From Athripsodes cinereus (Eukaryota; Arthropoda; Insecta; Trichoptera; Leptoceridae): a DNA stretch of 64,000 nucleotides. The notes beneath the pieces are model-generated. The model was given only the letters and a program-made list of their open reading frames with translations, had not been told where the DNA came from and ran no database searches. Location: positions 5,456,001 to 5,520,000 of the forward strand of contig OX388318.1 in the NCBI GenBank assembly GCA_947579605.1, read 5' to 3'. Positions 2,992 to 64,000 of the stretch are shown one piece after another. Within the stretch, counting starts at the first letter, position 1. Every line of letters starts with the position of its first letter. The position numbers and the translations under genes were made by a program.

Positions 2992-5358
2992 ATGGCGCTT
3001 CAGGAAGTAAGTGATATCATAAATTATATTGAAAAAGAAAAAAATATAAAAATAGACGATTTACCAAATAAAGATGTGATTAAGTCTAAAATAGAAATGC
3101 ACATGGCCAACAAGAAAAACAAAATATCATTAATAAATAAGAGAAAGGAAGACATTTTACAGAACATTGAGAAAGAAAAGAAATCAATAGCTAAAAAATT
3201 CTTTGTTAATCATCCTTATAAAAGTAATTGTGAAAAACGTACATCACAAAATAATTCAATATGTTCCTTTTGTAATTACGAGAAGAGATGCGAGAATTTA
3301 CAAAAACGTTTCAAAAAATGTCAATCTACTATATCTGAAGAATTTATATCTAGAATATCTTCAGAAATTTCAACTGCGATAGAAAAAGAAGGAAAAATTA
3401 TATCTAATAATGATAAATCTGTACAAGAACTCAAAACGGAGAGTACAGAAATCTGTGGTAAAGAATTAGAATATATTAACAAATGTAGTGATTTAATCAT
3501 AAAGGCTACTCCCGATGACACAAAAAGTGAAATTATTAAGAATAAAAGCTCTGAGACAAAAAAACAAAGAAAGATCAAGAAAGTGAAAAAAGAAATATCA
3601 AAAAATGACGATAGAGTGGTGCTGGATAAACTAGAATGTAGTCATGAAAATAATTGTGATAAAGCTATTATCTTTGAAAATAGTCCAGAGCTTTCCACAG
3701 AAGTGGATGAAAAATATGTCTCGCTCAAAATAAGAATCAAATCCAAATCTAGTAAAAGAGCAAAGAAGATAAGTAATTCTGAAAAGATACCCGACAAGGA
3801 AAAAGATTACAAAAATAATTGTTCAGAAGATATGAAAATGACTTCACACAAATTACTTATTCTAAGATCCGAAGATATGGTTAACTCTGTAAATATAAGT
3901 AATAATACAATGTCTGTTGTTGATATTGATGCACGAGATATAATGGACAGTAAAAGTAAAAAGATTAAATTAATAAAGGATAAGAAAAAATCTGACATAA
4001 AAACTGACAGCCGTATCAAAAGTTCTGAGCATTTGGGAGGTCTCACAGAACCAACTCCGTGTAAGCTTGTAGATTACAGAGAAGCTTGTAAAGATATTTT
4101 AATGAAGAAAGAACGATCCTACATCCCTTTGAATTGGTGGGATGTTTTTGTTATAGATCCAGAAGACTTGGTGTTTGAAAACTTTTGCAATGATCAAATA
4201 TATAAAAGACAAGTAAGAATATTAAGCAGATGTGGGAAAATAATGACATGCCGACTTCACACTGTGCAGTTTCAAGATAAAGTGAAGATGAAAGCGGAGA
4301 AAGACACTCTCAAAGTAGATTTAAATACTGAATTCAAGATCTGTCCTGGGTTACCATTTTATTTCAATATAACATTTGCTCCAAAGAATTTTGATGAATC
4401 TTTTATAATTGAAATTCGTTTTACACTTTATGTTAATAATATTACTTATCTTGTAAATATTCCGATACAAGCTCTTATTCTAAAAGATGTGGATGTGCAA
4501 GTGTACCCACAGGTTGTAAATTTTGGCTCTATTGCCATGTGGAATATGAAAAATGAAGAAGATTATGCAAACGAGATCACCATTTCTACTTCAGCAGGGA
4601 GACAGTTGGAAGTTTATGTGCGGAAGTGTGGAGATATTCTCGATGATATTTATGTTGATGATGGTACTGAATTAACAACTCAAAGCAAATTCTCTCTTAC
4701 TTCGGAATCTACTATTCTGAGCCCACGATCCAAAATAAGGAAAAAATTGAAGAGAAATATATCTTCGAATACATATCTGCATATCTATAAACTTCTTTTA
4801 CAATATCTAGAAATCGCAACTGATTCTTTTCGATTTGATAAACATTATATACGCCTCTTACCAAATGTAGAAAAAAAAGTCAAAGTTTATTTTTCTGATG
4901 TTACGTATACAGGTTGTCACCAAATGAAATATAATTTAGATGTTTATGATTCTGGCAAATATCTTACATCAAAAAGGGTTTCATTACTCGCTAAGACATT
5001 TCAGCTTCCTGTAATAATGTCTCCTATGTCGATAGATTTTAAAGATTGTAAAAGATCGCATTCGTTTTTGAAAATTTTCAGCATAGACAACATGCACACA
5101 ATATTTTCCATGCGAGTGTATTTAAAAATGCCAAATTTCAGAAATCATTGTTTAACGGTCAATCCTAAGAAAGCTTATATAAAAGCAGGGACTAGCAAAT
5201 TATTTGAAATATGTTATTTAATTAAAAATGGGGAGAGTGAGAACTTAGAAGAGTTCACCCTTCACGGTGTGATGAAAGTTTATGTGAAAATGAATTGTAC
5301 TAAGTATGCAAAAGCTCCTCCAATATCTATTCCTATATATGCCCCGTATTTAGTCTAG
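2992..5358 (+). CDS. ASH/MSP-type Ig-like domain protein, probable ciliary/flagellar protein, intronless
   Basis: Single open frame of 788 codons with an ATG in good context (AACAATGG) and a stop directly upstream in frame. Residues 1 to about 345 are lysine-, glutamate- and serine-rich and probably disordered or coiled, with a short cysteine cluster (CSFCNYEKRC) near residue 90. From about residue 375 the protein becomes a series of beta-rich segments of the pattern (D/Y)P-x(4)-F followed by hydrophobic strands: DPEDLVF near 387, YPQVVNFGS near 503 and SPMSIDF near 676. That pattern is typical of ASH/MSP Ig-like domains in axonemal and centrosomal proteins such as the CFAP and HYDIN-related families. 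I cannot name the orthologue. AATAAATAAA about 75 bases after the stop is a likely polyadenylation signal. The absence of introns, where every neighbour is intron-rich, suggests a retrogene or a testis-type gene; that is inference. Confidence 0.75.
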   Translation: MALQEVSDIINYIEKEKNIKIDDLPNKDVIKSKIEMHMANKKNKISLINKRKEDILQNIEKEKKSIAKKFFVNHPYKSNCEKRTSQNNSICSFCNYEKRCENLQKRFKKCQSTISEEFISRISSEISTAIEKEGKIISNNDKSVQELKTESTEICGKELEYINKCSDLIIKATPDDTKSEIIKNKSSETKKQRKIKKVKKEISKNDDRVVLDKLECSHENNCDKAIIFENSPELSTEVDEKYVSLKIRIKSKSSKRAKKISNSEKIPDKEKDYKNNCSEDMKMTSHKLLILRSEDMVNSVNISNNTMSVVDIDARDIMDSKSKKIKLIKDKKKSDIKTDSRIKSSEHLGGLTEPTPCKLVDYREACKDILMKKERSYIPLNWWDVFVIDPEDLVFENFCNDQIYKRQVRILSRCGKIMTCRLHTVQFQDKVKMKAEKDTLKVDLNTEFKICPGLPFYFNITFAPKNFDESFIIEIRFTLYVNNITYLVNIPIQALILKDVDVQVYPQVVNFGSIAMWNMKNEEDYANEITISTSAGRQLEVYVRKCGDILDDIYVDDGTELTTQSKFSLTSESTILSPRSKIRKKLKRNISSNTYLHIYKLLLQYLEIATDSFRFDKHYIRLLPNVEKKVKVYFSDVTYTGCHQMKYNLDVYDSGKYLTSKRVSLLAKTFQLPVIMSPMSIDFKDCKRSHSFLKIFSIDNMHTIFSMRVYLKMPNFRNHCLTVNPKKAYIKAGTSKLFEICYLIKNGESENLEEFTLHGVMKVYVKMNCTKYAKAPPISIPIYAPYLV

Positions 5359-44979: not shown

Positions 44980-47900
44980 TGGGGTAAATCTATTTTACTG
45001 ACTAGCATATAAAGCTGCTGACCGGGTATTAAATATTGTCGAAATTTCTTGAAATTTGGTACAAACATGTCAACCGTGATCCTTTACAACATGTAAAAAG
45101 ATGCAACCCCTAACTTATATTTTAAGGGTAGTTTTGGTCGAAAAACCGTTACTGACCGCATAAAAACCGACTGACCGGGTATTGAGAGACGGCCGAAATT
45201 GATGAAACTTTGTAAATATATGTATTATTAGGTAACCTATGATGTTGTAAAAAATCAACCCTTTCGAATAATTTTTAAGGGTAGTTTTGTTCAAAAAACC
45301 ATTACTGACTGCATAAAAACCGACTGACCGGGTATTGAGAGACGGCCAAAATTGATGAAACTCTGTAAAGATACGTAACATTAGGTAAGTTATACCATGT
45401 CAAAAAATCAACCCTTTCGAATAACTTTTAAGGGTAGTTTTGGTCGAAAAACTTATTGACCACATAAAAAGCTGCTGACCGGGTATTAAACGTCAGTCGA
45501 AATTGATAAAACTTAACAGATATATGAATCATTAGGGTACTTATATCATGTCAAAAAATCAACCCTTTCGAATAATTTTTAAGGGTAGTTTTGGTCGAAA
45601 AACTGCTACTGACCGCATAAAAACCGACTGACCGGGTATTAAGAGACGGCCGAAATTGATGAAACTCTGTAAAGATGCGTAACATAAGGTTACTTATATT
45701 GCGTTAAAAAATCAACCCTTTGGAATAATTTATAAGGGTAGTTTTGGTCGAAAAACCGCTACTGATCTCATAAAAACTGACTGACCGGGTATTGAGAGAC
45801 GGCCAAAATTGATGAAACTCTGTAAATATACGTAACATTAGGTAAGTTATACCATGTCAAAAAATCACCCCTTTCGAATAACTTTTAAGGGTAGTTTTGG
45901 TCGAAAAACTTATTGACCACATAAAAAGCTGCTGACCGGATATTAAACGTCGGTCGAAATTGATGAAACTTCGCAGGTATATGAACCTTTAGGTTACTTA
46001 TATTGTGTTAAAAAATCAACCCTTTCGAAAAAAAAACAATGGTAGTTATGGTCGAAAAACTGTTACTCACCGCATAAAAACCGACTGACCGGGTATCAAG
46101 AGACGGCCGAAATTGATGAAACTCTGTAAAGATATGTATCACTAAGGTTCCTATATTGTTTTAAAAAATCAATCATTTCGAAAAAAATTCAAGGGTAGTT
46201 TCGGTCGAAAAACCGATGCTGACTACATAAAAAGTGACTGACCGGGTATAAAATATCGGTCGAAATTGATGAAACTTCGCAAATATATGAATCTTTAGGT
46301 TACTTATATTGTGTTAAAAAATCAACCCTTTCGAAAAAAAACAATGGTAGTTTTGGTCGAAAAACTGTTACCGCATAAAAACCGACTGACCGGGTATTAA
46401 GAGACGGCCGAAATTAATGAAACTCTGTAAAGATATGTATCACTAGGGTTCCTATATTGTTTTAAAAAATCAATCATTTCTAAAAGAAATCAAGGGTAGT
46501 TTTGGTCGAAAAACCATTACTGACTGCATAAAAACCGACTGACCGGGTATCAGGAGACGGCCGAAATTGATGAAACTCTATAAAGATATGTATTACTAGG
46601 ATTCCTATATTGTTTTACAAAATCAATCATTTCGAAAAAAATTCAAGCGTAGTTTTGGTCGAAAAACCGTTACTGACTGCATAAAAAGCTGCTGACCGGG
46701 TATAAAACGACGGCCGAAATTGATGAAACTCTGTTAAAATATGTATCACTAAAGTTCTTATATTGGTTAAAAAAATCAATCATTTCGAAAAAAATTCAAG
46801 GGTAGTTTTGGTCGAAAAACCGTTACTCACCGCATAACAACCGACTGACCGGGTATTAAGAGACTGCCGAAATTAATGAAACTCTGTAAAGATATGTATC
46901 ACTAGGGTTCCTATATTGTTTTAAAAAATCAATCATTTCTGAAAGAAATCAAGGGTAGTTTTGGTCGAAAAACCATTACTGACTGCATAAAAATCGACTG
47001 ACCGGGTATCAGGAGACGGCCGAAATTGATGAAACTCTTTAAAGATATGTATCACTAGGATTCCTATACTGTTTTACAAAATCAATCATTTCGAAAAAAA
47101 TTCAAGAGTAGTTTTGGTCGAAAAACCGTTACTGACTGCATAAAAAGCTGCTGACCGGGTATAAAACGACGGCCGAAATTGATAAAACTCTGTTAAAATA
47201 TGTATCACTAAAGTTCCTATATTGGTTAAAAAAATCAATCATTTCGAAAAAAATTCAAGGGTAGTTTTGGTCGAAAAACCGTTACTCACCGCATAAAAAC
47301 CGACTGACCGGGTATCAGGAGACGGCCGAAATTGATGAAACTCTTTAAAGATATGTATCACTAGGATTCCTATATTGTTTTACAAAATCAATCATTTCGA
47401 AAAAAATTCAAGAGTAGTTTTGGTCGAAAAACCGTTACTGACTGCATAAAAAGCTGCTGACCGGGTATAAAACGACGGCCGAAATTGATAAAACTCTGTT
47501 AAAATATGTATCACTAAAGTTCCTATATTGTTTTACAACATCAATCATTTCGAAAAAAATTCAAGGGTAGTTTTGGTCGAAAAACCGTTACTCACCGCAT
47601 AAAAACCGACTGACCGGGTATCAAGAGACAGCCGAAATTGATGAAACTCTGAAAAGATATGTATCACTAGGGTTCCTATATTGTTTTAATAAATCAATTA
47701 TTTCGAAAAAAATTCAAGGGTAGTTTTGGTCGAAAAACCGATGCTGACTACATAAAAAGTGACTGACCGGGTATAAAATATCGGTCGTAATTGATAAAAC
47801 TTCGCAGATATACGCATCTTTAGGTTACTTATATTGTGTTAAAAAATCAACCCTTTCGAAAAAAAAACAATGGTAGTTTTGGTCGAAAAACTGTTACTCA

Positions 47901-50900
47901 CCGAATAAAAACCGACTGACCGGGTATCAAGAGACGGCCGAAATTGATTTAACTCTGTAAAGATATGTATCACTAAGGTTCCTATATTGTTTTAAAAAAT
48001 CAATCATTTCGAAAAAAATTCAAGGGTAGTTTTGGTCGAAAAACCGTTACTCACCGCATAAAAACCGACTGACCGGGTATCAGGAGACGGCCGAAATTGA
48101 TGAAACTCTTTAAAGATATGTATCACTAGGATTCCTATATTGTTTTACAAAATCAATCATTTCGAAAAAAATTCAAGAGTAGTTTTGGTCGAAAAACCGT
48201 TACTGACTGCATAAAAAGCTGCTGACCGGGTATAAAACGACGGTCGAAATTGATGAAACTCTGTTAAAATATGTATCACTAAAGTTCCTATATTGTTTTA
48301 CAACATCAATCATTTCGAAAAAAATTCAAGAGTAGTTTTGGTCGAAAAACCGTTACTGACTGCATAAAAAGCTGCTGACCGGGTATAAAACGACGGCCGA
48401 AATTGATGAACCTCTGTTAAAATATGTATCACTAAAGTTCCTATATTGGTTAAAAAAATCAATCATTTCGAAAAAAATTCAAGGGTAGTTTTGGTCGAAA
48501 AACCGTTACTCACCGCATAAAAACCGACTGACCGGGTATCAAGAGACAGCCGAAATTGATGAAACTCTGAAAAGATATGTATCACTAGGGTTCCTATATT
48601 GTTTTAATAAATCAATTATTTCGAAAAAAATTCAAGGGTAGTTTTGGTCGAAAAACCGATGCTGACTACATAAAAAGTGACTGACCGGGTATAAAATATC
48701 GGTCGTAATTGATAAAACTTCGCAGATATATGAATCTTTAGGTTACTTATATTGTGTTAAAAAATCAACCCTTTCGAAAAAAAAACAATGGTAGTTTTGG
48801 TCGAAAAACTGTTACTCACCGAATAAAAACCGACTGACCGGGTATCAAGAGACGGCCGAAATTGATTTAACTCTGTAAAGATATGTATCACTAAGGTTCC
48901 TATATTGTTTTAAAAAATCAATCATTTCGAAAAAAATTCAAGGGTAGTTTCGGTCGAAAAACCGATGCTGACTACATAAAAAGTGACTGACCGGGTATAA
49001 AATATCGGTCGAAATTGATGAAACTTCGCAAATATATGAATCTTTAGGTTACTTATATTGTGTTAAAAAATCAACCCTTTCGAAAAAAAACAATGGTAGT
49101 TTTGGTCGAAAAACTGTTACTCACCGCATAAAAACCGACTGACCGGGTATTAAGAGACGGCCGAAATTAATGAAACTCTGTAAAGATATGTATCACTAGG
49201 GTTCCTATATTGTTTTAAAAAATCAATCATTTCTAAAAGAAATCAAGGGTAGTTTTGGTCGAAAAACCATTACTGACTGCATAAAAACCGACTGACCGGG
49301 TATCAAGAGACGGCCGAAATTGATGAAACTCTGTAAAGATATGTATCACTAGGGTTCCTATATTGTTTTAAAAAATCAATAATTTCGAAAAAAATTCAAG
49401 GGTAGTTTCGGTCGAAAAACCGATGCTGACTACATAAAAAGTGACTGACCGGGTATAAAATATCGGTCGAAATTGATGAAACTTCGGAAATATATGAATG
49501 TTTAGGTTACTTACATTGTGTTTAAAAATCAATCATTTCGAAAAAAATTCAAGGGTAGTTTCGGTCCAAAAACCATTGCTGACTACATAAAAAGTGACTG
49601 ACCGGGTATAAAATATTGGTCGAAATTGATGAAACTTCGCAGATATATGAATCTTTAGGTAACTTATATTGTGTTAAAAAATCAATCCTTTCGAAAAATA
49701 AACAATGGTAGTTTTGGTCGAAAAACTGTTACTCACCGCATAAAAACTGACTGACCAGGTATCAAGAGACGGCCGAAATTGATGAAACTCTGTAAAGATA
49801 TGTATCACTAAAGTTCCTATATTGGTTAAAAAAATCAATCATTTCGAAAAAAATTCAAGGGTAGTTTTGATCGAAAAACCGTTACTCACCGCATAAAAAC
49901 CGACTGACCGGGTATTAAGAGACGGCCGAAATTAATGAAACTCTGTAAAGATATGTATCACTAGGATTCCTATATTGTTTTACAAAATCAATCATTTCGA
50001 AAAAAATTCAAGAGTAGTTTTGGTCGAAAAACCGTTACTCACCGCATAAAAACCGACTGACCGGGTATTAAGAGACGGCCGAAATTAATGAAACTCTGTA
50101 AAGATATGTATCACTAGGATTCCTATATTGTTTTACAAAATCAATCATTTCGAAAAAAATTCAAGAGTAGTTTTGGTCGAAAAACCGTTACTGACTGCAT
50201 AAAAAGCTGCTGACCGGGTATAAAACGACGGCCGAAATTGATGAAACTCTGTTAAAATATGTATCACTAAAGTTCCTATATTGGTTAAAAAAATCAATCA
50301 TTTCGAAAAAAATTCAAGGGTAGTTTCGGTCCAAAAATCATTGCTGACTACATAAAAAGTGACTGACAGGGTATAAAATATCGGTCGAAATTGATGAAAC
50401 TTCGCAGATATATGAATCTTTAGGTAACTTATATTGTGTTAAAAAATCAACCCTTTCGAAAAATAAACAATGGTAGTTTTGGTCGAAAAACTGTTACTCA
50501 CCGCATAAAAACCGACTGACCGGGTATCAAGAGACGGCCGAAATTGATGAAACTCTGTAAAGATATGTATCACTAGGGTTCCTATATTGTTTTAAAAAAT
50601 CAATCATTTCGAAAAAAATTCAAGGGTAGTTTCGGTCCAAAAACCTTTACTGACTGCATAAAAAGCTGCTGACTGGGTATAAAACGACGGTAGAAATTGA
50701 TGAAACTCTGTTAAAATATGTATCACTAAAGTTCCTATATTGGTTAAAAAAATCAATCATTTCGAAAAAAATTCATGGGTAGCTTTGATCGAAAAACCGT
50801 AACTCACCGCATAAAAACCGACTGACCGGGTATTAAGAGACGGCCGAAATTAATGAAACTCTGTAAAGATATGTATCACTAGGATTCCTATATTGTTTTA

Positions 50901-51943
50901 CAAAATCAATCATTTCGAAAAAAATTCAAGAGTAGTTTTGGTCGAAAAACCGTTACTGACTGCATAAAAAGCTGCTGACCGGGTATAAAACGAAGGCCGA
51001 AATTGATGAAACTCTGTTAAAATATGTATCACTAAAGTTTCTATATTGGTTAAAAAAATCAATCATTTCGAAAAAAAATCAAGGGTAGTTTTGGTCGAAA
51101 AACCGTTACTCACCGCATAAAAACCGACTGACCGGGTATCAAGAAACGGCCGAAATTGATGAAACTCTGAAAAGATATGTATCACTAGGGTTCCTATATT
51201 GTTTTAAAAAATCAACCCTTTCGAAAAAAAAACAATGGTAGTTTTAGTCGAAAAACTGTTACTCACCGCATAAAAACCGACTGACCGGGTATCAAAAGAC
51301 GACCGAAATTGATGAAACTCTGTAAAGATATGTATCACTAAGGTCTCTATATTGTTTTAAAAAATCAATCATTTCGAAAAAAATTCAAGGGTAGTTTCGG
51401 TCCAAAAACCTTTACTGACTGCATAAAAAGCTGCTGACTGGGTATAAAACGACGGTAGAAATTGATGAAACTCTGTTAAAATATGTATCACTAAAGTTCC
51501 TATATTGGTTAAAAAAATCAATCATTTCGAAAAAAATTCATGGGTAGCTTTGATCGAAAAACCGTAACTCACCGCATAAAAACCGACTGACCGGGTATTA
51601 AGAGACGGCCGAAATTAATGAAACTCTGTAAAGATATGTATCACTAGGATTCCTATATTGTTTTACAAAATCAATCATTTCGAAAAAAATTCAAGAGTAG
51701 TTTTGGTCGAAAAACCGTTACTGACTGCATAAAAAGCTGCTGACCGGGTATAAAACGACGGCCGAAATTGATGAAACTCTGTTAAAATATGTATCACTAA
51801 AGTTTCTATATTGGTTAAAAAAATCAATCATTTCGAAAAAAAATCAAGGGTAGTTTTGGTCGGAAAACCGTTACTCACCGCATAAAAACCGACTGACCGG
51901 GTATCAAGAGACGGCCGAAATTGATGAAACTCTGAAAAGATAT
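44980..51943 (+). repeat. Satellite array, ~152-bp monomer, about 45 copies
   Basis: Tandem monomers of 151-153 bp. Each has TGACCGGGTAT, CGAAATTGATGAAAC, a TCAATCATTTCGAAA or TCAACCCTTTCGAAA block and GGTAGTTTTGGTCGAAAAAC. Three monomer types can be told apart after the GACCGGGTAT core: AAGAGACGGCCG (type A), AAAACGACGGCCG preceded by GCTGC (type B) and AAAATATCGGTCG preceded by AAAGTGAC (type C). The left edge decays over the first two monomers, as at a true array edge. It is interrupted at 51943 by a retrotransposon. Open frames in it are a by-product of a period divisible by three. Confidence 0.97.
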
Positions 51944-52824
51944 CGTTGCTAAAAACCATGGCTCAGGAGGTCAAGGACATAAAAAAAACTTTGAGTCTAG
52001 ATAGACTTCCTCACGAAAATAGTGAAAGTAGAATAAGTAAAATGAACAGTGTAAAAACATTCTCGTTGATTGTTTCATCTGTTAATGACATGACAGTGGA
52101 CGATATAGAGAAGTTTATGAAGTCGAATCTGAATCTGGCATCTATCGGTGTGGCAGTGAATTACACAAGAAGACTGAGAGAGAGAGGCCTGTTGATGACG
52201 TGTCCTACAAGAAATGACATACAGATCATCTCAAACTTAATTACAGAAAAATTTGGTGCAACACTTAGAGTAGAAATATTAAAAAAAAGACGACCATGTG
52301 TGGTCTTTAAAAATATTAGTGCGGATTATGATGTAAACGATTTGCCGAATGATATAATCCAACAGAACACCGAAATGAGGGATATGGGCATAAAATCAAA
52401 TGAACTGATTGTGAAAAAGATAATAAAGATTAAAGGAAATAAGGATCAAAATCATTTACTGGCTGAAACAACATCTGGAATGAGAAAATATTTGATTGGG
52501 AAGGGACGAATCTTTTTAGGATACCAGAGACTGCAGGTGGTGGACTCAGACCCGGTGGCCCAATGCTTCCACTGCCTGGGTCATGGACATACTTCTGTCA
52601 CCTGTCTAAATAAGGCAAAACCAGCGATATGTTCCCACTGTGGAGGCAGTCACCACCTGAGAACCTGTGAAAAAAAAGATCAGAAGCCTGTGTGTGTAAA
52701 TTGTGAAAATTTTAATATTAAATACAAATCAGAAAGAAAAAGTGATCATAGTGCGATGGACAAAAATAAATGTGAATGTTACCGACACGCTTTGGCAAGA
52801 GCTATACAAAAAATTGATTACTGA
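51944..52824 (+). CDS. Retrotransposon ORF1 protein (gag-like, CCHC zinc knuckles), 5'-truncated
   Basis: About 293 codons remain. The frame is open at the insertion point, and the first ATG in it is at 51958. The N-terminal part is coiled and charged (QEVKDIKKTLSLDRL). A nucleic-acid-binding middle follows (KTFSLIVSSVNDMTVDDIEK onwards). Then come zinc knuckles: CFHCLGHGHTSVTC (C-x2-C-x4-H-x4-C), CSHCGGSHHLRTC, and a third, longer cysteine-histidine motif starting CVNC. It ends with HSAMDKNKCECYRHALARAI and a TGA followed by CTG. It packages the element RNA. The next ORF starts 21 nt after the stop, in the same frame. Confidence 0.88.
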
Positions 52825-52845
52825 CTGTGTGTTTTTTGTTTTGAG

Positions 52846-54210
52846 ATGGCTTTCAATTGCGTGTCAATATTTAGAAATACACGCTGTATAGAATGTAGAA
52901 ATATTCAATGTCATTCATTGGTTGATATGGTTGGGAGATGTTATCAATCATGGTACACTCGGACCCTGGTTGTGGTGGTGCGAGTGTGCGGACTTGGTAG
53001 CTTAAACCTTGCAATGTATCAGTGTACCCTTTCTGTATCCGATGATTACTTGGAAAGTATAAACTATGTTTCGGAAAGGTTTTTGCATCGAAGAACCGAA
53101 TTTTCTATACCTAAATTTATTGTGTTACTAGGATTAACGCGCTTCTTGTTGCATATTTATTTGAAGAATATGTGCATGTTTAATTGTTTTATTTGTTTGA
53201 ATGTTTTCTTTTTACTGTTTTCTACTACAATTATTACAGAGTATCTCAAAAGTGTAGAATATAAGAATCTTCCAACTAACCAGATTGCATTATTGTTGTT
53301 GAGAAATATTTTTTTCATAAGATTCCGTAATTTTAATTTGAATGAAAACATTTTGAACATAGTTCATAATGATGGGAGAAACATGGTGTTGCAGGGAAAT
53401 AACCATTTTTATGACTTATCTTCTTATGATGGCACATACATGGTTTACACTCTGTTAATGTTTTATATTAAGGTATCAGCGCGCCTTAATGTGAGTTTGA
53501 CTGTGACTGTAAATAAATTTAATTACTATCGATGTGTATGCTCAGCTTCTTACACTCAATTTTCGAATTGTAATTGCATGCCGAAGACTATGTTCACGAT
53601 ATTCTTTAGTGATCATATTCGCAAAGCACAATGCACCAATAGGAAATCATTTCGGGCGACTATACCGCCGCCACTAAAGAATGAATTATATTACTGCAAA
53701 TTATTCCTTGCTAACATGTTTGTTAGGAGTCATATTGTATTGATTGCATTATTTATGTTTGCCGTACTGAATTGGTACTACGCTTATGTACTGGATGTAT
53801 TGTGTATAATATTATGTATATGCGTCCACTTAATATGTATATTTGATGTACTGTACTGGTACTATATTCTGGACTTGTGTGCATTTGATTGTTTGAAATA
53901 TTTGTGTGTGCCGTATGGCATTGATGCAGTTTTTCTTTTTTTATATGATGAGTTGTGGGGATCTGAGATCGAAATAAAACTCAAGTTATGTGAATCACGC
54001 GTTACAAAGTATTTATATAGATATCTAACTAAATCTTATCATCCAAAAATTAATACTGAGATAATTTCGACTTCGGATTGCCTATATTTCTTCCGTGTTA
54101 GCAGTATTGGTGTATTGGAATATATACAACTATTTACTATCGGCTGTGCGACATATTATGTGCGACTTGTGTGTTTCAGTGTTATAAAATTACCTCCACC
54201 TGTTCACTAG
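52846..54210 (+). CDS. Unexplained 454-residue ORF between ORF1 and ORF2 of the retrotransposon
   Basis: A true ATG (GAGATGG context) opens 454 codons in AT-rich, T-rich DNA. All other frames there are broken by stops. By the visible base composition about one codon in sixteen should be a stop, so chance is not a reasonable explanation. The protein is rich in Cys, Phe, Tyr, Leu and Ile. Membrane-like stretches lie near residues 91-106, 111-130, 198-210, 293-345 (the longest) and 428-447. A soluble loop carries clustered cysteines (YYRCVCSASYTQFSNCNCM, 228-245) and RATIPPPLKN. I recognise no family. It is in the frame of ORF1, and the last 40 nt overlap the open ORF2 frame. The overlap ends well before the endonuclease domain, so it is not an N-terminal part of ORF2. 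Alternatives are an accessory or membrane protein, or a structured RNA region that happens to be open. Confidence 0.6.
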   Translation: MAFNCVSIFRNTRCIECRNIQCHSLVDMVGRCYQSWYTRTLVVVVRVCGLGSLNLAMYQCTLSVSDDYLESINYVSERFLHRRTEFSIPKFIVLLGLTRFLLHIYLKNMCMFNCFICLNVFFLLFSTTIITEYLKSVEYKNLPTNQIALLLLRNIFFIRFRNFNLNENILNIVHNDGRNMVLQGNNHFYDLSSYDGTYMVYTLLMFYIKVSARLNVSLTVTVNKFNYYRCVCSASYTQFSNCNCMPKTMFTIFFSDHIRKAQCTNRKSFRATIPPPLKNELYYCKLFLANMFVRSHIVLIALFMFAVLNWYYAYVLDVLCIILCICVHLICIFDVLYWYYILDLCAFDCLKYLCVPYGIDAVFLFLYDELWGSEIEIKLKLCESRVTKYLYRYLTKSYHPKINTEIISTSDCLYFFRVSSIGVLEYIQLFTIGCATYYVRLVCFSVIKLPPPVH

Positions 54211-54302
54211 ATTCAGGTGTGCAGCAGAATTTATTGGAAGATATAGATAGTAATTATAATATCAAGGAATGTATTTGTCGCACGGCTGATCAATGTAACT
54301 AT

Positions 54303-57194
54303 ATGCTTAATTCTTGTGATGATTATTTGATGGTGATGCACTCTAATATTAGAAGTATGCAGAGAAATTTTGACGAGTTTTTGGTACATCTTGGTTGTTT
54401 GAATAAAATGCCAGATTGCATAGTTTTATCCGAGGCTCACTTGAGTCATGACAGTCCTGATTACCACATGACAGAGTACACATATCATGCGACTTCACAT
54501 GTTATCAATAGGAATAGTGGTATAGCTGTATTTACACACAACGTGAATAGTGTCGAATGTAGTGAGGTACAAATAAATAAGGTGAATTGTTTGCATATTC
54601 AATTGAAAAAGTCTGACAGGGATTATCATATATTTGCTTTATATAGGACTCACGGCTCGGTTGTCGAGGAATTTATAAATGATATTAGGGAATTACTTCT
54701 GCAGTACAGAGGTAAAAACGTGATTGTAACGGGCGATATCAATGTTAACGTGGCTGATGACTGCTTTAGTATAGAAAAAACCAATTATTTGAACACAATG
54801 GCGGAGCTAAACTATAAACTATGCTCGAGGTTATATACTAGAGAAGTGGATGGTCAAAGACCATCATGTTTGGATCATTTCTGGACGAATACTTCACTCG
54901 ATAGGTTGACAAATGTGCGGTGTATCGTATGGGCAAATAATATAACAGATCATCACACAAGTATTTTCTTGGAAAATATAAATAATTGTAAACTTGAACG
55001 TAGATCTGTGAAATCAACTTTAACTAAAATAGATATGAAAAAACTGAAAGTAACACTTGAGGCAGAGTCTTGGGACTCAACTTTAGATTCATTAGATACT
55101 AATATCTGTGCTTCAGAGTTTTATAATACTCTTGCATCGCACATATCTCGAGCTACGTATACATTAGACATAAATCAGAATGTAAAGAGTAAACTTAAAG
55201 TTATTGCACCATGGATGACAGTTGGACTAGTAGCTTCAGTTAGACACAGGGAAAAATTATATAGATTAACTAAGAAATTCCCCCATGATTTGATGGCTAG
55301 GAATACTTTCAGAAAATATAGAAATGTATTAACAACTGTTATTAGAGAGTCTAAAAATGAATACTATTCGGGCAAATTGAGCAAAGCTGGCTCATGCAGT
55401 CGTAAGGTATGGGGAGTTGTTAATGAAGTTATTAACAAAAGAGCAAAAAGTGTAGACATCAAAGAGATACAACTGAATTCCGAAGTGTGTAGTATGCGTG
55501 AACAGCCGGATGTAATTGTAAATGGATTCAACTCCTTTTTCACTCAGGTGGGAAAGAATCTTGCTAGTAAAATAAAACCTAGGGCTGTGAGTGAGGTCTG
55601 TGCCTCCGGTATGAGTCTGCATTATTCTCTTGATAAATTTGAGCAGATCAATTCTGACGTAGTACTGAAAGAAATACAGGGTTTGAAAGGTGGCAGCTCT
55701 CCAGGTTTTGATGGTGTGAGTGTTAGTATTTTAAAGGAAAATTCTCAATGCCTTAGTCACCCTATAGCACATATTATAAATGTAAGTTTGAATAACGGAT
55801 CCTTTCCATCTTTATATAAGATATCACACGTGACACCCGTCTACAAATCAGGAGATCGCACGAATATTGGCAACTACAGGCCGATCTCTGTTATCTCCAA
55901 TATAGCTAAGATCTTTGAGAGAGTTGTTAAACGACAAATGATCAATTATTTGGACTCAAACAAGATCATACATGATAATCAGTTTGGTTTTAGACAGGGA
56001 ATGGGAACTGATGATGCTTTGGCCAGACTTACAACAGTGATTAATCAGTCTCTTGATGAGGGAGAAAAGTGTATGGGATTATTTGTGGATCTTAGAAAGG
56101 CTTTTGATAGCATAAGTCACAGTAGGCTACTAGATAAATTATACCAATTAGGAATTAAGGGAAAAGCGGCAAAGTGGCTTCAAAGTTATCTTTTTCAAAG
56201 AGAACAGAGAGTTAAGATCAATTCCTTTCTCAGTGAGCCATTAACCTCTGAGTTCGGGATCCCACAGGGTACAGTACTGGGACCAATTTTATTCATTATG
56301 TATGTTAACCAAATATTTGAACTCCCACTGAAATCGACGGTACTGTCATTTGCGGATGACACCGCACTGATTGTCCGTGGCAAGACGTGGAATGAGGTTG
56401 CGAATACTGCGAATAGGGAAGTGAATAAGCTAAAAAATTGGTTCGATGAAAATTTACTATCCCTTAATGCTGAAAAAACAAATTATGTCAATTTTTCAAT
56501 TAATGTAAGAGGTAAACCAAGTGATCTTAATGTAAGAATTCATGATAGCTCTTGTCAAAACGAATCTGAACAATGTATAAATACTAATTGTGTTACACTA
56601 AAAAATGTTGACAGGGTTAAATATCTCGGGGTATTAATGGACTCTCATATGAAATGGAAGGATCATATACAGGCTACTGTAAATAGAGTGAGAAAGCTAT
56701 TTTACGTTTTTTACAGACTCCGAGATATTATGCAAGTGAAACAATTAAAAGATATATACTATTCTCTTGTTCAGTCGGTCATACAGTATGGCATCTTGGC
56801 ATGGGGTGGTGCTTACAAGAACAGCGTCTATTCACTGGGTGTCAATCAGAGAAGTGTTATGAAGATAATTCTTAGAAAGCCTTTTGACTACCCGACCCTG
56901 AAACTTTTTAAAGAGCTTGCGGTCCCCTCCTTGGAATGCCTTTATAAGAGGAAGGCAGTATACCAAGTTTGTAAGGAATACTTTATACAAAAACTACACC
57001 CGCTGGGGAGTATTAGTGAGTGTCCAAGGTTAGGGGGCCGAATTAAAGTGCCTGCGAAGAGGACAGCTGCTGGACAACACCACTACACATATCTTGGGGT
57101 GGGATGGTACAATGGCTTGAAAAAAGAGAATAAATATAAGTATTCGGATGATTTAAATGCATTTAAACTGAATATAAAAAAGGTAATTCAATGA
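54303..57194 (+). CDS. Retrotransposon ORF2: endonuclease plus reverse transcriptase
   Basis: The frame is open from 54171 (1007 codons). I place the start at the first ATG, 54303 (963 residues), just ahead of the endonuclease domain. Counting from 54171: HSNIRSM near 57, the catalytic Glu in LSEAH near 88, GDIN at 188, CLDHFWTN at 233 and the TDHH end at 260, all of the APE-type endonuclease that nicks the target. The reverse transcriptase has NYRPISV near 568, GFRQGMGTDDALARL, LFVDLRKAFDSI near 640, GIPQGTVLGP and the catalytic SFADDTA near 727. A C-terminal thumb follows with VKYLGVLMDSHMKWKDHI, and no RNase H. No internal stop or frameshift is present, so this copy could be active. Upstream, a pyrimidine-rich TTTCAG at 54174-54179 resembles a splice acceptor. 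Confidence 0.95.
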   Translation: MLNSCDDYLMVMHSNIRSMQRNFDEFLVHLGCLNKMPDCIVLSEAHLSHDSPDYHMTEYTYHATSHVINRNSGIAVFTHNVNSVECSEVQINKVNCLHIQLKKSDRDYHIFALYRTHGSVVEEFINDIRELLLQYRGKNVIVTGDINVNVADDCFSIEKTNYLNTMAELNYKLCSRLYTREVDGQRPSCLDHFWTNTSLDRLTNVRCIVWANNITDHHTSIFLENINNCKLERRSVKSTLTKIDMKKLKVTLEAESWDSTLDSLDTNICASEFYNTLASHISRATYTLDINQNVKSKLKVIAPWMTVGLVASVRHREKLYRLTKKFPHDLMARNTFRKYRNVLTTVIRESKNEYYSGKLSKAGSCSRKVWGVVNEVINKRAKSVDIKEIQLNSEVCSMREQPDVIVNGFNSFFTQVGKNLASKIKPRAVSEVCASGMSLHYSLDKFEQINSDVVLKEIQGLKGGSSPGFDGVSVSILKENSQCLSHPIAHIINVSLNNGSFPSLYKISHVTPVYKSGDRTNIGNYRPISVISNIAKIFERVVKRQMINYLDSNKIIHDNQFGFRQGMGTDDALARLTTVINQSLDEGEKCMGLFVDLRKAFDSISHSRLLDKLYQLGIKGKAAKWLQSYLFQREQRVKINSFLSEPLTSEFGIPQGTVLGPILFIMYVNQIFELPLKSTVLSFADDTALIVRGKTWNEVANTANREVNKLKNWFDENLLSLNAEKTNYVNFSINVRGKPSDLNVRIHDSSCQNESEQCINTNCVTLKNVDRVKYLGVLMDSHMKWKDHIQATVNRVRKLFYVFYRLRDIMQVKQLKDIYYSLVQSVIQYGILAWGGAYKNSVYSLGVNQRSVMKIILRKPFDYPTLKLFKELAVPSLECLYKRKAVYQVCKEYFIQKLHPLGSISECPRLGGRIKVPAKRTAAGQHHYTYLGVGWYNGLKKENKYKYSDDLNAFKLNIKKVIQ

Positions 57195-57368
57195 GAAAGA
57201 TGTGTATGAGGTCAAGTGATTGTGTCGTTGATGATAGGTTTATCGTTGTATTTTTGTTGTTGTTGTTTTTGTTTATTTTGTAAAATTATGGTAAATAGAT
57301 TAAGTGTGTGATGTTCTATAATGATTAAGTTTGATCGAATTTGTTTGATTATTAGTAAAAACCCTATA

Positions 57369-57401
57369 ACCCCTCAAAGCACGAGCTCTGCTCAATTTTG
57401 A
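57369..57401 (+). other. 3' UTR stem-loop of the retrotransposon
   Basis: CCCTCAAAGCACGAGCTCTG with its continuation ending TTTTGAGGG forms a stem (CCCTCAAA with TTTTGAGGG) and an inner near-palindrome (AGCA-GAGCTC-TGCT). The same structure with one arm change recurs at 59474-59506. A conserved hairpin near the 3' end is the kind of element recognised by the LINE reverse transcriptase. Confidence 0.7.
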
Positions 57402-57525
57402 GGGTACAAAAAGAAAAAAAAAAACAGATAATATAAAGATTTGTATAATTGTGCTTATTGTATATTTGTATGTGTTTATTATGATCTCAATAAAAAATAT
57501 TTGAATTTGAATTTGAATTTGATAT

Positions 57526-57812
57526 GTATCACTAGGGTTCCTATATTGTGTTAAAAAATCAACCCTTTCGAAAAATAAACAATGGTAGTTTTGGTCGAAA
57601 AACTGTTACTCACCGCATAAAAACCGACTGACCGGGTATCAAGAGACGGCCGAAATTGATGAAACTCTGTAAAGATATGTATCACTAGGGTTCCTATATT
57701 GTTTTAAAAAATCGGCCGAATCGGAGACGGCCGAAATTGATGAAATTCTGTAAAGATGTGTATCATCAGGTAAGTAATATTGTCTTAGAAAACCAGCCCA
57801 TTCGAGTAGTTT
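57526..57812 (+). repeat. Satellite, continuation right of the retrotransposon
   Basis: The monomer interrupted at 51943 resumes here (GTATCACTAGGGTTCC) and runs for about two monomers in the same orientation as the main array. The second is internally deleted around 57710. It ends at the TTAA target of the next insertion. Confidence 0.9.
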
Positions 57813-59276: not shown

Positions 59277-59755
59277 AAGTAGGTACATAATAGCTGCGAC
59301 TTTTAATCCTTTGCTGCATTAATCTTTCTTATATATATGTAATTACCCCTGTTGCTATGCAGATACAATAATTTATATAAACAACATTTTGAGTGAAGGT
59401 ACAGCGATTAGCAAACAATAATATTATTATGCAGGTACGAGTTAGAGTACGTGTAAAAAATAATGGAACTATCCCTCAAAGCACGAGATCTGCTCATATT
59501 TGAGGGAATGAATTATGTTTTGCTTACTGTATAATTATAAGTAAATAATTATAAAAAAAGGTACATAAGTGCAGGGATATTTTAACGTTCGGATTTTCAG
59601 AGTTCTTATAAACTGCATTGTTTTATTTTGAAATCCCGTATGACCTTCTAAATAAAAATTATTATATTTTTAATGATAACTTTCGGCACAATAGCCATAT
59701 ATATCACCGGGCATATCACACGGAACATAGTAGTTATATACTACGTTAGATAGAT
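59277..59755. other. Non-satellite spacer with a LINE 3' hairpin copy
   Basis: AT-rich DNA of unclear origin. It contains a second copy of the retrotransposon 3' stem-loop (CCCTCAAAGCACGAGATCTG with TTTGAGGG, 59474-59506), followed by a sequence unlike the full element. It is thus a 3' remnant of a related LINE or of a SINE that shares its tail. No gene is seen. Confidence 0.6.
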
Positions 59756-60655: not shown

Positions 60656-60818
60656 TACTAAATGCCAATATACTTAATTCAAATTTCTTTTTTAATACAT
60701 TATTTATGTAACAACAATAGTTGTATACATATCAACCACGTGTTAGAAAAGGACACCACTCCAAGAATTACTATCCCAGGTGGCGCTTTTATCACGAAAG
60801 TGTACAGTCTTATTATCT

Positions 60819-63800
60819 TAGTAACGGTTTTTCGACCAAAACTACCCTTGGTTTTTTTTCGAAATGATTGATTTTTTAATACAATATAGGAACCCTAGTG
60901 ATACATATCTTTACAGAGTTTCAACAATTTCGACCGATATTTTATACCCGGTCAGTCACTTTTTATGTGGTTAGCAACGGTTTTTCGACCAAAACTACCC
61001 TTGGATTTTTGTCGAAAGGGTTGATTTTTTAAGACAATATAAGTACTCTGAAAATTCATATATGTGCGAAGTTTCATCAATTTCGACCGTTGTTTAATAC
61101 CCGGTCAGTCGGTTTTTATGCAGTCAGTAACGGTTTTTCGACCAATACTACCCTTGGTTTTTTTTCGAAATGATTGATTTTTTAATTCCATATAGGAACC
61201 CTAGTGATACATATCTTTACAGAGTTTCAACAATTTCGACCGATATTTTATACCCGGTCAGTCACTTTTTATGTGGTTAGCAACGGTTTTTCGACCAAAA
61301 CTACCTTTAAAAATTATTCGAAAGGGTTGATTTTTTACAACATCATAAGTTACCTAATAATACATATATTAACAGAGTTTTATCAATTTCGGCCGTCTCT
61401 CAATACCCGGTCAGTCGGTTTTTATGCAGTTAGTAACGGTTTTTCGACCAAAACTACCCTTGGTTTTTTTTCGAAATGATTGATTTTTTAATTCAATATA
61501 GGAACCCTAGTGTACATATCTTTACAGAGTTTCAACAATTTCGACCGATATTTTATACACCGTCAGTCACTTTTTATGTGGTTAGCAACGGTTTTTAGAC
61601 CAAAACTACCCTTAAAAATTATTCGAAAGGGTTGATTTTTTACAACATCATAAGTTACCTAATAATACATATATTAACAGAGTTTTATCAATTTCGGCCG
61701 TCTCTCAATACCCGGTCAGTCGGTTTTTATGCGGTGAGTAACAGTTTTTCGACCAAATTACCCTTGCATTTTTTTCGAAATGATTGACATTTTATAACAA
61801 TATAGGAACCCTAGTGATACATATCTTTACAGAGTTTCATCAATTTCGGCCGTCTCTTGATACCCGGTCAGTCGGTTTTTATGCAGTTAGTAACGGTTTT
61901 TCGACCAAAACTACCCTTGCTTTTTTTTCGAAATGATTGATTTTTTAATACAATATAGGAACCCTAGTGATACATATCTTTACAGAGTTTCAACAATTTC
62001 GACCGATATTTTATACCCGGTCAGTCACTTTTTATGTGGTTAGCAACGGTTTTTCGACCAAAACTACCCCTGGATTTTTGTCGAAAGGGTTGATTTTTTA
62101 ACACAATATAAGTACTCTAAAGATTCATATATGTGCGAAGTTTCATCAATTTCGACCGTCGTTTAATACCCGGTCAGTCGGTTTTTATGCAGTCAGTAAC
62201 GGTTTTTCGACCAATACTACCCTTGGTTTTTTTTCGAAATGATTGATTTTTTAATTCAATATAGGAACCCTAGTGATACATATCTTTACAGAGTTTCAAC
62301 AACTTCGACCGATATTTTATACCCGGTCAGTCACTTTTTATGTGGTTAGCAACGGTTTTTCGACCAAAACTACCCTTGGATTTTTGTTGAAAGGGTTGAT
62401 TTTTTAACACAATATAAGTTACCTAAAGATTCATATATCTGCGAAGTTTCATCAATTTCGACCGATATTTTATACCCGGTCAGTCACTTTTTATGTAGTC
62501 AGCAATGGTTTTTGGACCGAAACTACCCTTGAATTTTTTTCGAAATGATTGATTTTTTAACACAATGTAAGTAACCTAAACATTCATATATTTGCGAAGT
62601 TTCATCAATTTCGACCGTCGTTTAATACCCGGTCAGTCGGTTTTTATGCAGTCAGTAACGGTTTTTCGACCAATACTACCCTTGGTTTTTTTTCGAAATG
62701 ATTGATTTTTTAATTCAATATAGGAACCCTAGTGATACATATCTTTACAGAGTTTCAACAATTTCGACCGATATTTTATACCCGGTCAGTCACTTTTTAT
62801 GTGGTTAGCAACGGTTTTTCGACCAAAACTACTCTTGGATTTTTTTCGAAATGATTGACATTTTATAACAATAAAGGAACCCTAGTGAAACATATCTTTA
62901 CAGAGTTTCATCAATTTCGGCCGTCTCTTGATACCCGGTCAGTCGGTTTTTATGCGGTGAGTAACAGTTTTTCGACCAAAACTACCATTGTTTTTTTTTC
63001 GAAAGGGTTGATTTTTTAACACAATATAAGTAACCTAAAGATTCATATACCTGCGAAGTTTCATCAATTTCGACCGACGTTTAATATCCGGTCAGCAGCT
63101 TTTTATGTGGTCAATAAGTTTTTCGACCAAAACTACCCTTAAAAGTTATTCGAAAGGGGTGATTTTTTGACATGGTATAACTTACCTAATGTTACGTATA
63201 TTTACAGAGTTTCATCAATTTTGGCCGTCTCTCAATACCCGGTCAGTCAGTTTTTATGAGATCAGTAGCGGTTTTTCGACCAAAACTACCCTTATAAATT
63301 ATTCCAAAGGGTTGATTTTTTAACGCAATATAAGTAACCTTATGTTACGCATCTTTACAGAGTTTCATCAATTTCGGCCGTCTCTTAATACCCGGTCAGT
63401 CGGTTTTTATGCGGTCAGTAGCAGTTTTTCGACCAAAACTACCCTTAAAAATTATTCGAAAGGGTTGATTTTTTAACGCAATATAAGTAACCTTATGTTA
63501 CGCATCTTTACAGAGTTTCATCAATTTCGGCCGTCTCTTAATACCCGGTCAGTCGGTTTTTATGCGGTCAGTAGCAGTTTTTCGACCAAAACTACCCTTA
63601 AAAATTATTCGAAAGGGTTGATTTTTTGACATGATATAAGTACCCTAATGATTCATATATCTGTTAAGTTTTATCAATTTCGACCGACGTTTAATACCCG
63701 GTCAGCAGCTTTTTATGTGTTAAATAAGTTTTTCGACCAAAACTACCCTTAAAAGTTATTCGAAAGGGTTGATTTTTTGACATGGTATAACTTACCTAAT

Positions 63801-64000
63801 GTTACGTATCTTTACAGAGTTTCATCAATTTTGGCCGTCTCTCAATACCCGGTCAGTCGGTTTTTATGCAGTCAGTAATGGTTTTTTGACCAAAACTACC
63901 CTTAAAAATTATTCGAAAGGGTTGATTTTTTACAACATCATAGGTTACCTAATAATACATATATTTACAAAGTTTCATCAATTTCGGCCGTCTCTCAATA
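60819..64000 (-). repeat. Satellite array in inverted orientation, about 21 monomers, running out of the window
   Basis: The same ~152-bp monomer as 44980-51943, now as its reverse complement: GGTTTTTCGACCAAAACTAC, TTTACAGAGTTTCA, ATACCCGGTCAGTC. Types A, B and C are all present. The array continues to the last base, so its right edge is unknown. Confidence 0.97.

Follow-up and report, generated by a model that had tools for sequence, protein, structure and literature searches.

The 454-codon open reading frame (ORF) that separates ORF1 from ORF2 in a non-LTR retrotransposon of Athripsodes cinereus (Trichoptera) is genuine and not a product of chance, yet it is no isolated third gene. It probably acts as a translational bridge, which ribosomes would enter by reading through the UGA stop codon of ORF1 and leave by termination–reinitiation on ORF2. 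Here, we describe this frame in a stretch of 64,000 nt (the window; contig OX388318.1, positions 5,456,001 to 5,520,000) and its counterparts in the same genome. The features of the window that bear on the argument are the following.

51944-57520, + strand: copy of a non-LTR retrotransposon, 5′-truncated, inserted in a 153-bp satellite
51946-52821, + strand: ORF1, C-terminal 292 residues with zinc knuckles, stop TGA at 52822-52824
52822-52830, + strand: stop codon of ORF1 and its context, TGA CTG TGT, of the readthrough type UGA CU
52825-54207, + strand: bridge, 461 stop-free codons in ORF1's frame
52846-54210, + strand: reported ORF, 454 codons from an ATG, between ORF1 and ORF2, equal to the bridge from its first ATG at 52846
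54208-54210, + strand: bridge stop TAG, with 8 nt between it and the position aligned to the first residue of ORF2
54219-57191, + strand: ORF2 (endonuclease–reverse transcriptase), in the −1 frame relative to the bridge
57371-57404, + strand: hairpin of 34 nt in the 3′ UTR of the element, fold z −4.4

The host element displays the traits of a CR1/Jockey-type retrotransposon, namely an endonuclease and a reverse transcriptase (RT) in ORF2, a zinc-knuckle ORF1, a target-site duplication and a repeat at the 3′ tail. The duplication, GATAT, occupies positions 51939-51943 and recurs at 57521-57525, the flanks joined across the insertion restore the satellite array (97.5% over 160 nt), and the tail is a short (TTTGAA)-like repeat. 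The zinc-knuckle motif of ORF1 was found both by eye and by pattern, and another copy (L024) carries a 396-residue ORF1, with some 104 N-terminal residues beyond those of the window copy. Against Pfam, ORF2 matches RVT_1 (2.7e-36) and, weakly, two endonuclease models (7e-5 and 0.011, below Pfam's cut-offs), and RNase H is absent among the Pfam matches of the element. ORF2 has its best relatives, at 41-45% identity, among proteins whose sources are labelled jgi and lgn, and those named as eukaryotes among the matches listed are insects. The 3′ UTR hairpin, perhaps a recognition hairpin for the RT, recurs in the window at 59473-59506 with 91% identity, beside the end of another element. The 153-bp satellite forms two arrays of opposite orientation, at 45124-51943, 57643-57792 and 60818-63990.

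An earlier, sequence-only reading had reported a 454-codon ORF between a zinc-knuckle ORF1 and an EN-RT ORF2, with the other frames closed. Both points hold: the ORF is present, and each of the other five frames of the stretch contains 28-40 stops. The longest open run in 5000 Markov sequences of equal dinucleotide make-up was 203 codons, as against 454, which, together with the per-group odds given below, rules out chance as the source of the open frame. Counted from ORF1's TGA, the frame is open for 461 codons, so that ORF1 and the reported ORF share one frame with a single stop codon between them; and because the ORF ends 8 nt before the aligned start of ORF2, it fills the whole ORF1–ORF2 gap. 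The base composition breaks at ~52814, the end of ORF1, and next at ~54428, some 200 nt inside ORF2, which is no exact match to the end of the ORF. Apart from its absent stops, the ORF looks like non-coding DNA: its amino-acid composition is that of a random stop-free translation (chi-squared 13.2, 19 df), its codon periodicity of 0.017 is exceeded in each of 1000 bootstraps of ORF1 and of ORF2, and three measures are all lower in it than in the 27 other coding segments compared (283-454 codons). These composition tests are weak in power, since ORF1 likewise passes as random by its amino acids, but not by its codon periodicity.

Copies were sought in the same 716 Mb genome. A search with the ORF returned 22 matches (near-identical, decayed, and remote at ~30% identity), most of them with long open frames, and a search with ORF1 returned 134 scored matches. 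For inspection we took the surroundings of 19 ORF matches and of 40 ORF1 stops, the latter picked from the 134 for diversity, not at random. The 51 copies viewed, 48 of which were counted (L025, L035 and L037 stand outside the count), fall into 17 groups, which are our own sorting by ORF1 identity and frame length, with the bridge defined as whichever of the three frames at the stop of ORF1 is longest. L071, whose ORF1 stop is not at the expected place, and L088, which has no ORF1 tail, were left out of the group table, and copies lacking ORF1 (L029-L032, L038, L041 and L042) were not countable.

An open frame of 116-625 codons fills the gap between ORF1 and ORF2 in 16 of the 17 groups, and it is uninterrupted in 37 of the 48 counted copies (interrupted or lacking in 11), counts that are not independent because the groups are related by descent. 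With the stop rate taken from the two remaining frames, the odds of such openness by chance are 10^-5.6 to 10^-24.6 per group, and the groups themselves are not independent either, since the bridges of groups B and F1 are 90% identical and C shares the first part. Within the window's own family, the full 461-codon frame is present in four of the six copies viewed with an ORF1 stop; in one copy (L025) an indel carries the open frame on into that of ORF2, and another (L028) has a frameshifted bridge. The earlier proposal that selection keeps this frame open is borne out by these numbers. Mutational avoidance of stops is ruled out as their cause, since decayed copies carry both stops and frameshifts in the bridge.

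What recurs among the groups does not look like a free-standing gene, as the sequence-only reading had supposed, since in 13 of the 17 groups the bridge (134-625 codons) continues ORF1's frame directly after TGA-C. Three further groups have the bridge in the +1 frame, after TAG in F9 and F12 and after TGA CTT in F10 (copies L061, L067, L062, L064 and L090). There, the +1 frame is also open through at least 140-158 nt of ORF1's tail, the extent of the fetched sequence, and a +1 frameshift or an overlapping start is possible at these overlaps. In the two copies (L066 and L089) of F14, the most distant group, we found no open bridge in the gap. The ORF1 stop of F14 is TAA, followed by an A run.

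We propose that most ribosomes would terminate at the UGA of ORF1, and that a fraction would read through it owing to its UGA-CU(A) context, translating the stop-free bridge as a C-terminal extension of the ORF1 protein. Having translated the bridge, these ribosomes would meet a stop sited at the start of ORF2, and some of them would reinitiate there on ORF2, using an AUG in half of the groups and a near-cognate or some other codon in the remainder. With two leaky steps in series, reverse transcriptase would be rare relative to the ORF1 protein, and selection would act strongly on keeping the way from the stop of ORF1 to the start of ORF2 open, but only weakly on the peptide. The anatomy, recurrence, stop-freeness, stop contexts and substitution pattern are direct observations; readthrough, reinitiation and the supply of ORF2 by both are what we infer.

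Within most groups, the bridges appear to drift near the stop-purged neutral rate. For the window copy against L026 and L027, bridge dN/dS is 0.65 and 0.50 (neutral null 0.60 and 0.62), and further pairs within the window's family range from 0.35 to 0.78, with few changes to go by. ORF1 and ORF2 yield 0.15-0.26 when the window copy or L024 is set against L026 or L027, as does ORF2 of the window copy against L024; the ORF1s of L026 and L027 yield 0.77, on four changes. Elsewhere, bridge dN/dS is 1.55 in F3 (null 0.73; 97% of simulations lower), 1.09 and 0.72 in F6, 1.17 in F9, 1.07 for B against F1, 0.65 in F2 and 0.77 in F4, with lower values in F7 (0.38, null 0.82; 8% of simulations as low) and F12 (0.35, null 0.69; 4% as low). 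Between groups, the bridge values fall below the null, at 0.51 (0.81) for C against B, 0.58 (0.86) for C against F1 and 0.43 (0.87) for A against C, the last aligned at 50% nucleotide identity and possibly flattered by the alignment. None of 100 simulations was as low in any of the three comparisons, which suggests a weak constraint on the peptide over longer times. A comparison of dN/dS across copies, which the sequence-only reading had put forward as a check on selection, thus has a split outcome: values close to the null within the family, and values below it in the three between-group comparisons.

These between-group values, together with conserved blocks common to the bridges of A, B, C and F1 and a similarity between the F2 and F3 bridges that spans the whole F2-like part (30% identity over ~370 residues, E 3e-32), speak for a reading that we nonetheless regard as unlikely, namely that the selected thing is the readthrough product, an ORF1 isoform extended at its C terminus by a long and fast-evolving part, ribosome delivery to ORF2 being incidental. 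It sits poorly with the spread of bridge lengths and with the near-neutral rates within groups, as well as with a frame that is open just to ORF2's start. Moreover, most bridges are unrecognisable across groups, forming 12 clusters without recognisable mutual similarity (blastp, E 1e-3, one copy per group), and two structure models of the ORF contain no confident part or fold (mean pLDDT 37.5 from one sequence and 29.8 from six). Still, the blocks shared by A, B, C and F1, the between-group constraint and the F2–F3 likeness seem to exceed the needs of a pure spacer.

Groups C and B are mosaic elements: between L033 and L039, which represent them, the first ~245 bridge residues are 72-85% identical and the following ones 22-40%, and their ORF2s are 43% identical. 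The F3 bridge consists of an F2-like bridge plus ~250 codons that include a degenerate copy of the first ~120 residues of ORF2, from its endonuclease start, at bridge residues 387-508 (26%, E 8e-7 in L068; 21%, E 0.002 in L054). The nearly invariant glutamate of SEAH is an aspartate in this relic, and a complete ORF2 start follows it; it looks as if recombination had left an old ORF2 end in the gap, which was then kept open. In F12 copy L064, 117-nt tandem repeats occupy bridge nt 28-376, and, 117 being a multiple of three, a bridge can grow in multiples of three.

The entry proposed for the bridge lies at a stop codon of the leaky type. TGA CTG TGT is identical in the six ORF1-bearing copies of the window's family. 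Among the 48 counted copies, all 42 TGA stops are followed by C, 39 of them by CT and 25 by CTA, compared with 12% C-initial, 4% CT and 1% CTA among the codons inside bridges. UGA CU is present in 12 of the 13 groups whose bridge continues ORF1's frame (frame-0 groups), and the published readthrough motif TGA CTA in eight groups (B, C, F1, F2, F3, F4, F8 and F13); the other frame-0 contexts are CTG (A and F6), CTC (F5), CTT (F11) and CGG (F7), and in three of the 17 groups the ORF1 stop is TAG or TAA. UGA CU(A) is reported to be read through both in a fungus and in HeLa cells (PMC4207609), with UGA CUA G as the strong form (PMC12233894). The element resembles stop-codon readthrough genes in having a leaky-type UGA CU(A) and, right after the stop, an open extension that is apparently kept by selection. 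RNA folding around either junction of the window copy is unremarkable (z −0.02 to −1.35).

It is considerably less probable that the bridge is a separate third cistron, with an AUG of its own reached by reinitiation after ORF1 and an accessory protein as its product. The ATG of the window copy, 21 nt past ORF1's stop and with G at −3 and +4, would suit such a start, and A, F2, F5, F6 and F7 have an in-frame AUG 2-7 codons past the stop, so that reinitiation into the bridge is possible there. However, the first AUG comes 14-74 codons past the stop in eight of the 13 frame-0 groups, and the codons ahead of it (2-74 in each frame-0 group, 243 summed) are all stop-free, which fits readthrough better than initiation at an AUG. 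A third cistron would also leave unexplained the use of ORF1's frame in 13 of the 16 bridged groups and the invariable C after TGA.

The exit proposed for the bridge is equally close to a landmark: in one intact copy from each of the 16 bridged groups, ORF2 starts −25 to +15 nt from the bridge stop. Since the closed frames of bridge DNA have one stop per 9-13 codons, an end at ORF2's start would be expected if openness were selected just that far. The bridge stop overlaps ORF2's AUG in eight of the 16 groups, as ATGA in F3, F4 and F6, and with the AUG 5-16 nt ahead of the stop in F13, F9, F7, F8 and F11, the overlap being true of some copies only in F6, F9 and F13 (in F6 copy L058 the AUG lies 15 nt past the bridge stop, and F9 copy L061 is without an ORF2 AUG at the junction). 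We found no ORF2 AUG at the junction in A, B, C, F1, F2, F5, F10 and F12. In the window copy, where ORF2's frame is open from 54102 and its first in-frame AUG lies at 54303, the codon at 54219 is a GTG; seven of the relatives aligned have the initial Met of their ORF2 at this place, and the GTG is shared by the other copies of the family. Neither entry nor exit is uniform, as the +1 groups, F14 and the missing AUGs show, and the openness of the bridge is the common element.

The eight groups without the AUG, and the −1 position, in most groups, of ORF2 relative to a bridge that it overlaps, could also reflect a single polyprotein of ORF1, bridge and ORF2, made by readthrough plus a −1 frameshift. 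We consider this very improbable: slippery heptamers occur in the overlap in four of the 13 groups tested (F3, F6 and F13 were left out), the overlap of the window's group has none, that of C measures only 7 nt, and the ATGA geometry of other groups yields −1 by itself.

That the ORF encodes a membrane protein, perhaps acquired from elsewhere, as the sequence-only reading had suggested, is hardly credible: the window copy does show frame-specific hydrophobic clustering (p 0.008 and 0.017, two of the 10 statistics tried) and a strongest 19-residue peak of 2.97, which 3.4% of random stop-free sequences reach, but its mean hydrophobicity lies below random expectation, it has seven segments against an expected 5.5 ± 2.1, its composition is that of a random stop-free translation, clustering is absent from 14 of the 16 groups (p < 0.05 only in A and F4, with a control frame of F4 equally low), and sister groups have related bridges, which speaks against a recent capture. 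The ORF had no match in Pfam, PHROGs, PDB sequences, 5.8 billion proteins or viral contigs; these blanks say little, since ORF1, an undoubted coding region, was also without a match in the same protein search.

The way in which ORF2 of non-LTR elements is translated is not settled. In SART1, stop–start coupling has been reported, and for LINE-1 ORF2 termination–reinitiation has been proposed (PMC5972666). The bridge model resembles both in that ORF2 of a non-LTR element would be served by ribosomes terminating just upstream, with an overlap of stop and start (ATGA) in three groups; it differs in that there ORF1 itself terminates or a 63-nt spacer intervenes, whereas here a long stop-free bridge does, and in that the window's group shows neither SART1-type overlap nor abutment, having no AUG at ORF2's start and the GTG 8 nt on (PMC5972666). 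In TART of Drosophila, also a non-LTR element, the route from the gag stop to the downstream frame is called unknown; unlike the bridged groups, TART has no bridge but a spacer of 37 nt, whose +1 frame contains a stop (PMC5009743).

Parallels exist outside non-LTR elements as well. As in murine leukaemia virus Gag-Pol, a leaky-type stop after a gag-like ORF would feed downstream translation; in the virus, however, the downstream frame is Pol after UAG, whereas here a bridge follows UGA CU(A) and ORF2 lies in another frame in most groups (PMC5009743). Functional readthrough genes with UGA CUA share the context of eight of our groups, but their extensions serve as targeting or protein isoforms, whereas the bridge is long and variable and leads to a second gene (PMC4207609, PMC12233894). 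Extra ORFs are known in other retroelements, as exemplified by the ORF3s of bdelloids (PMC5408684), an esterase ORF1 (PMC3905857) and a shrimp non-LTR element whose putative ORFs 2 and 3 lack BLASTp matches (PMC3849965). Like these, the bridge adds coding capacity, which in them comes partly with transmembrane segments or without known relatives; unlike these mostly recognisable modules, located after pol or inside ORF1, it is unrecognisable across groups. Within the open-access literature consulted, which besides the papers cited here included PMC7140322, PMC11203168, PMC7998251 and PMC5718144, we came across no account of a non-LTR element whose bridge is fed by readthrough.

More broadly, and tentatively, selection in such elements may favour the openness of a frame over its product. 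The bridge would then be a sequence-indifferent ribosome conveyor of 100-600 codons, loaded by readthrough or, in sister groups, through the +1 frame and unloaded by reinitiation, which sets the ratio of ORF1 to ORF2 and can recruit any stop-free DNA, even a fragment of a dead endonuclease. With a leaky-type stop where it begins and overlapping stop and start codons where it ends, such a bridge offers a concrete and cheap test of ORF2 translation. Should its peptide be indifferent, the bridge would be a natural example in which openness alone is selected, and it would caution against assuming that every long ORF without relatives encodes a functional protein.

Elsewhere in the window, positions 2992-5358 hold an ORF of 788 residues that looks intronless and has a weak match to CFAP74 Ig-like, short of the Pfam cut-off.
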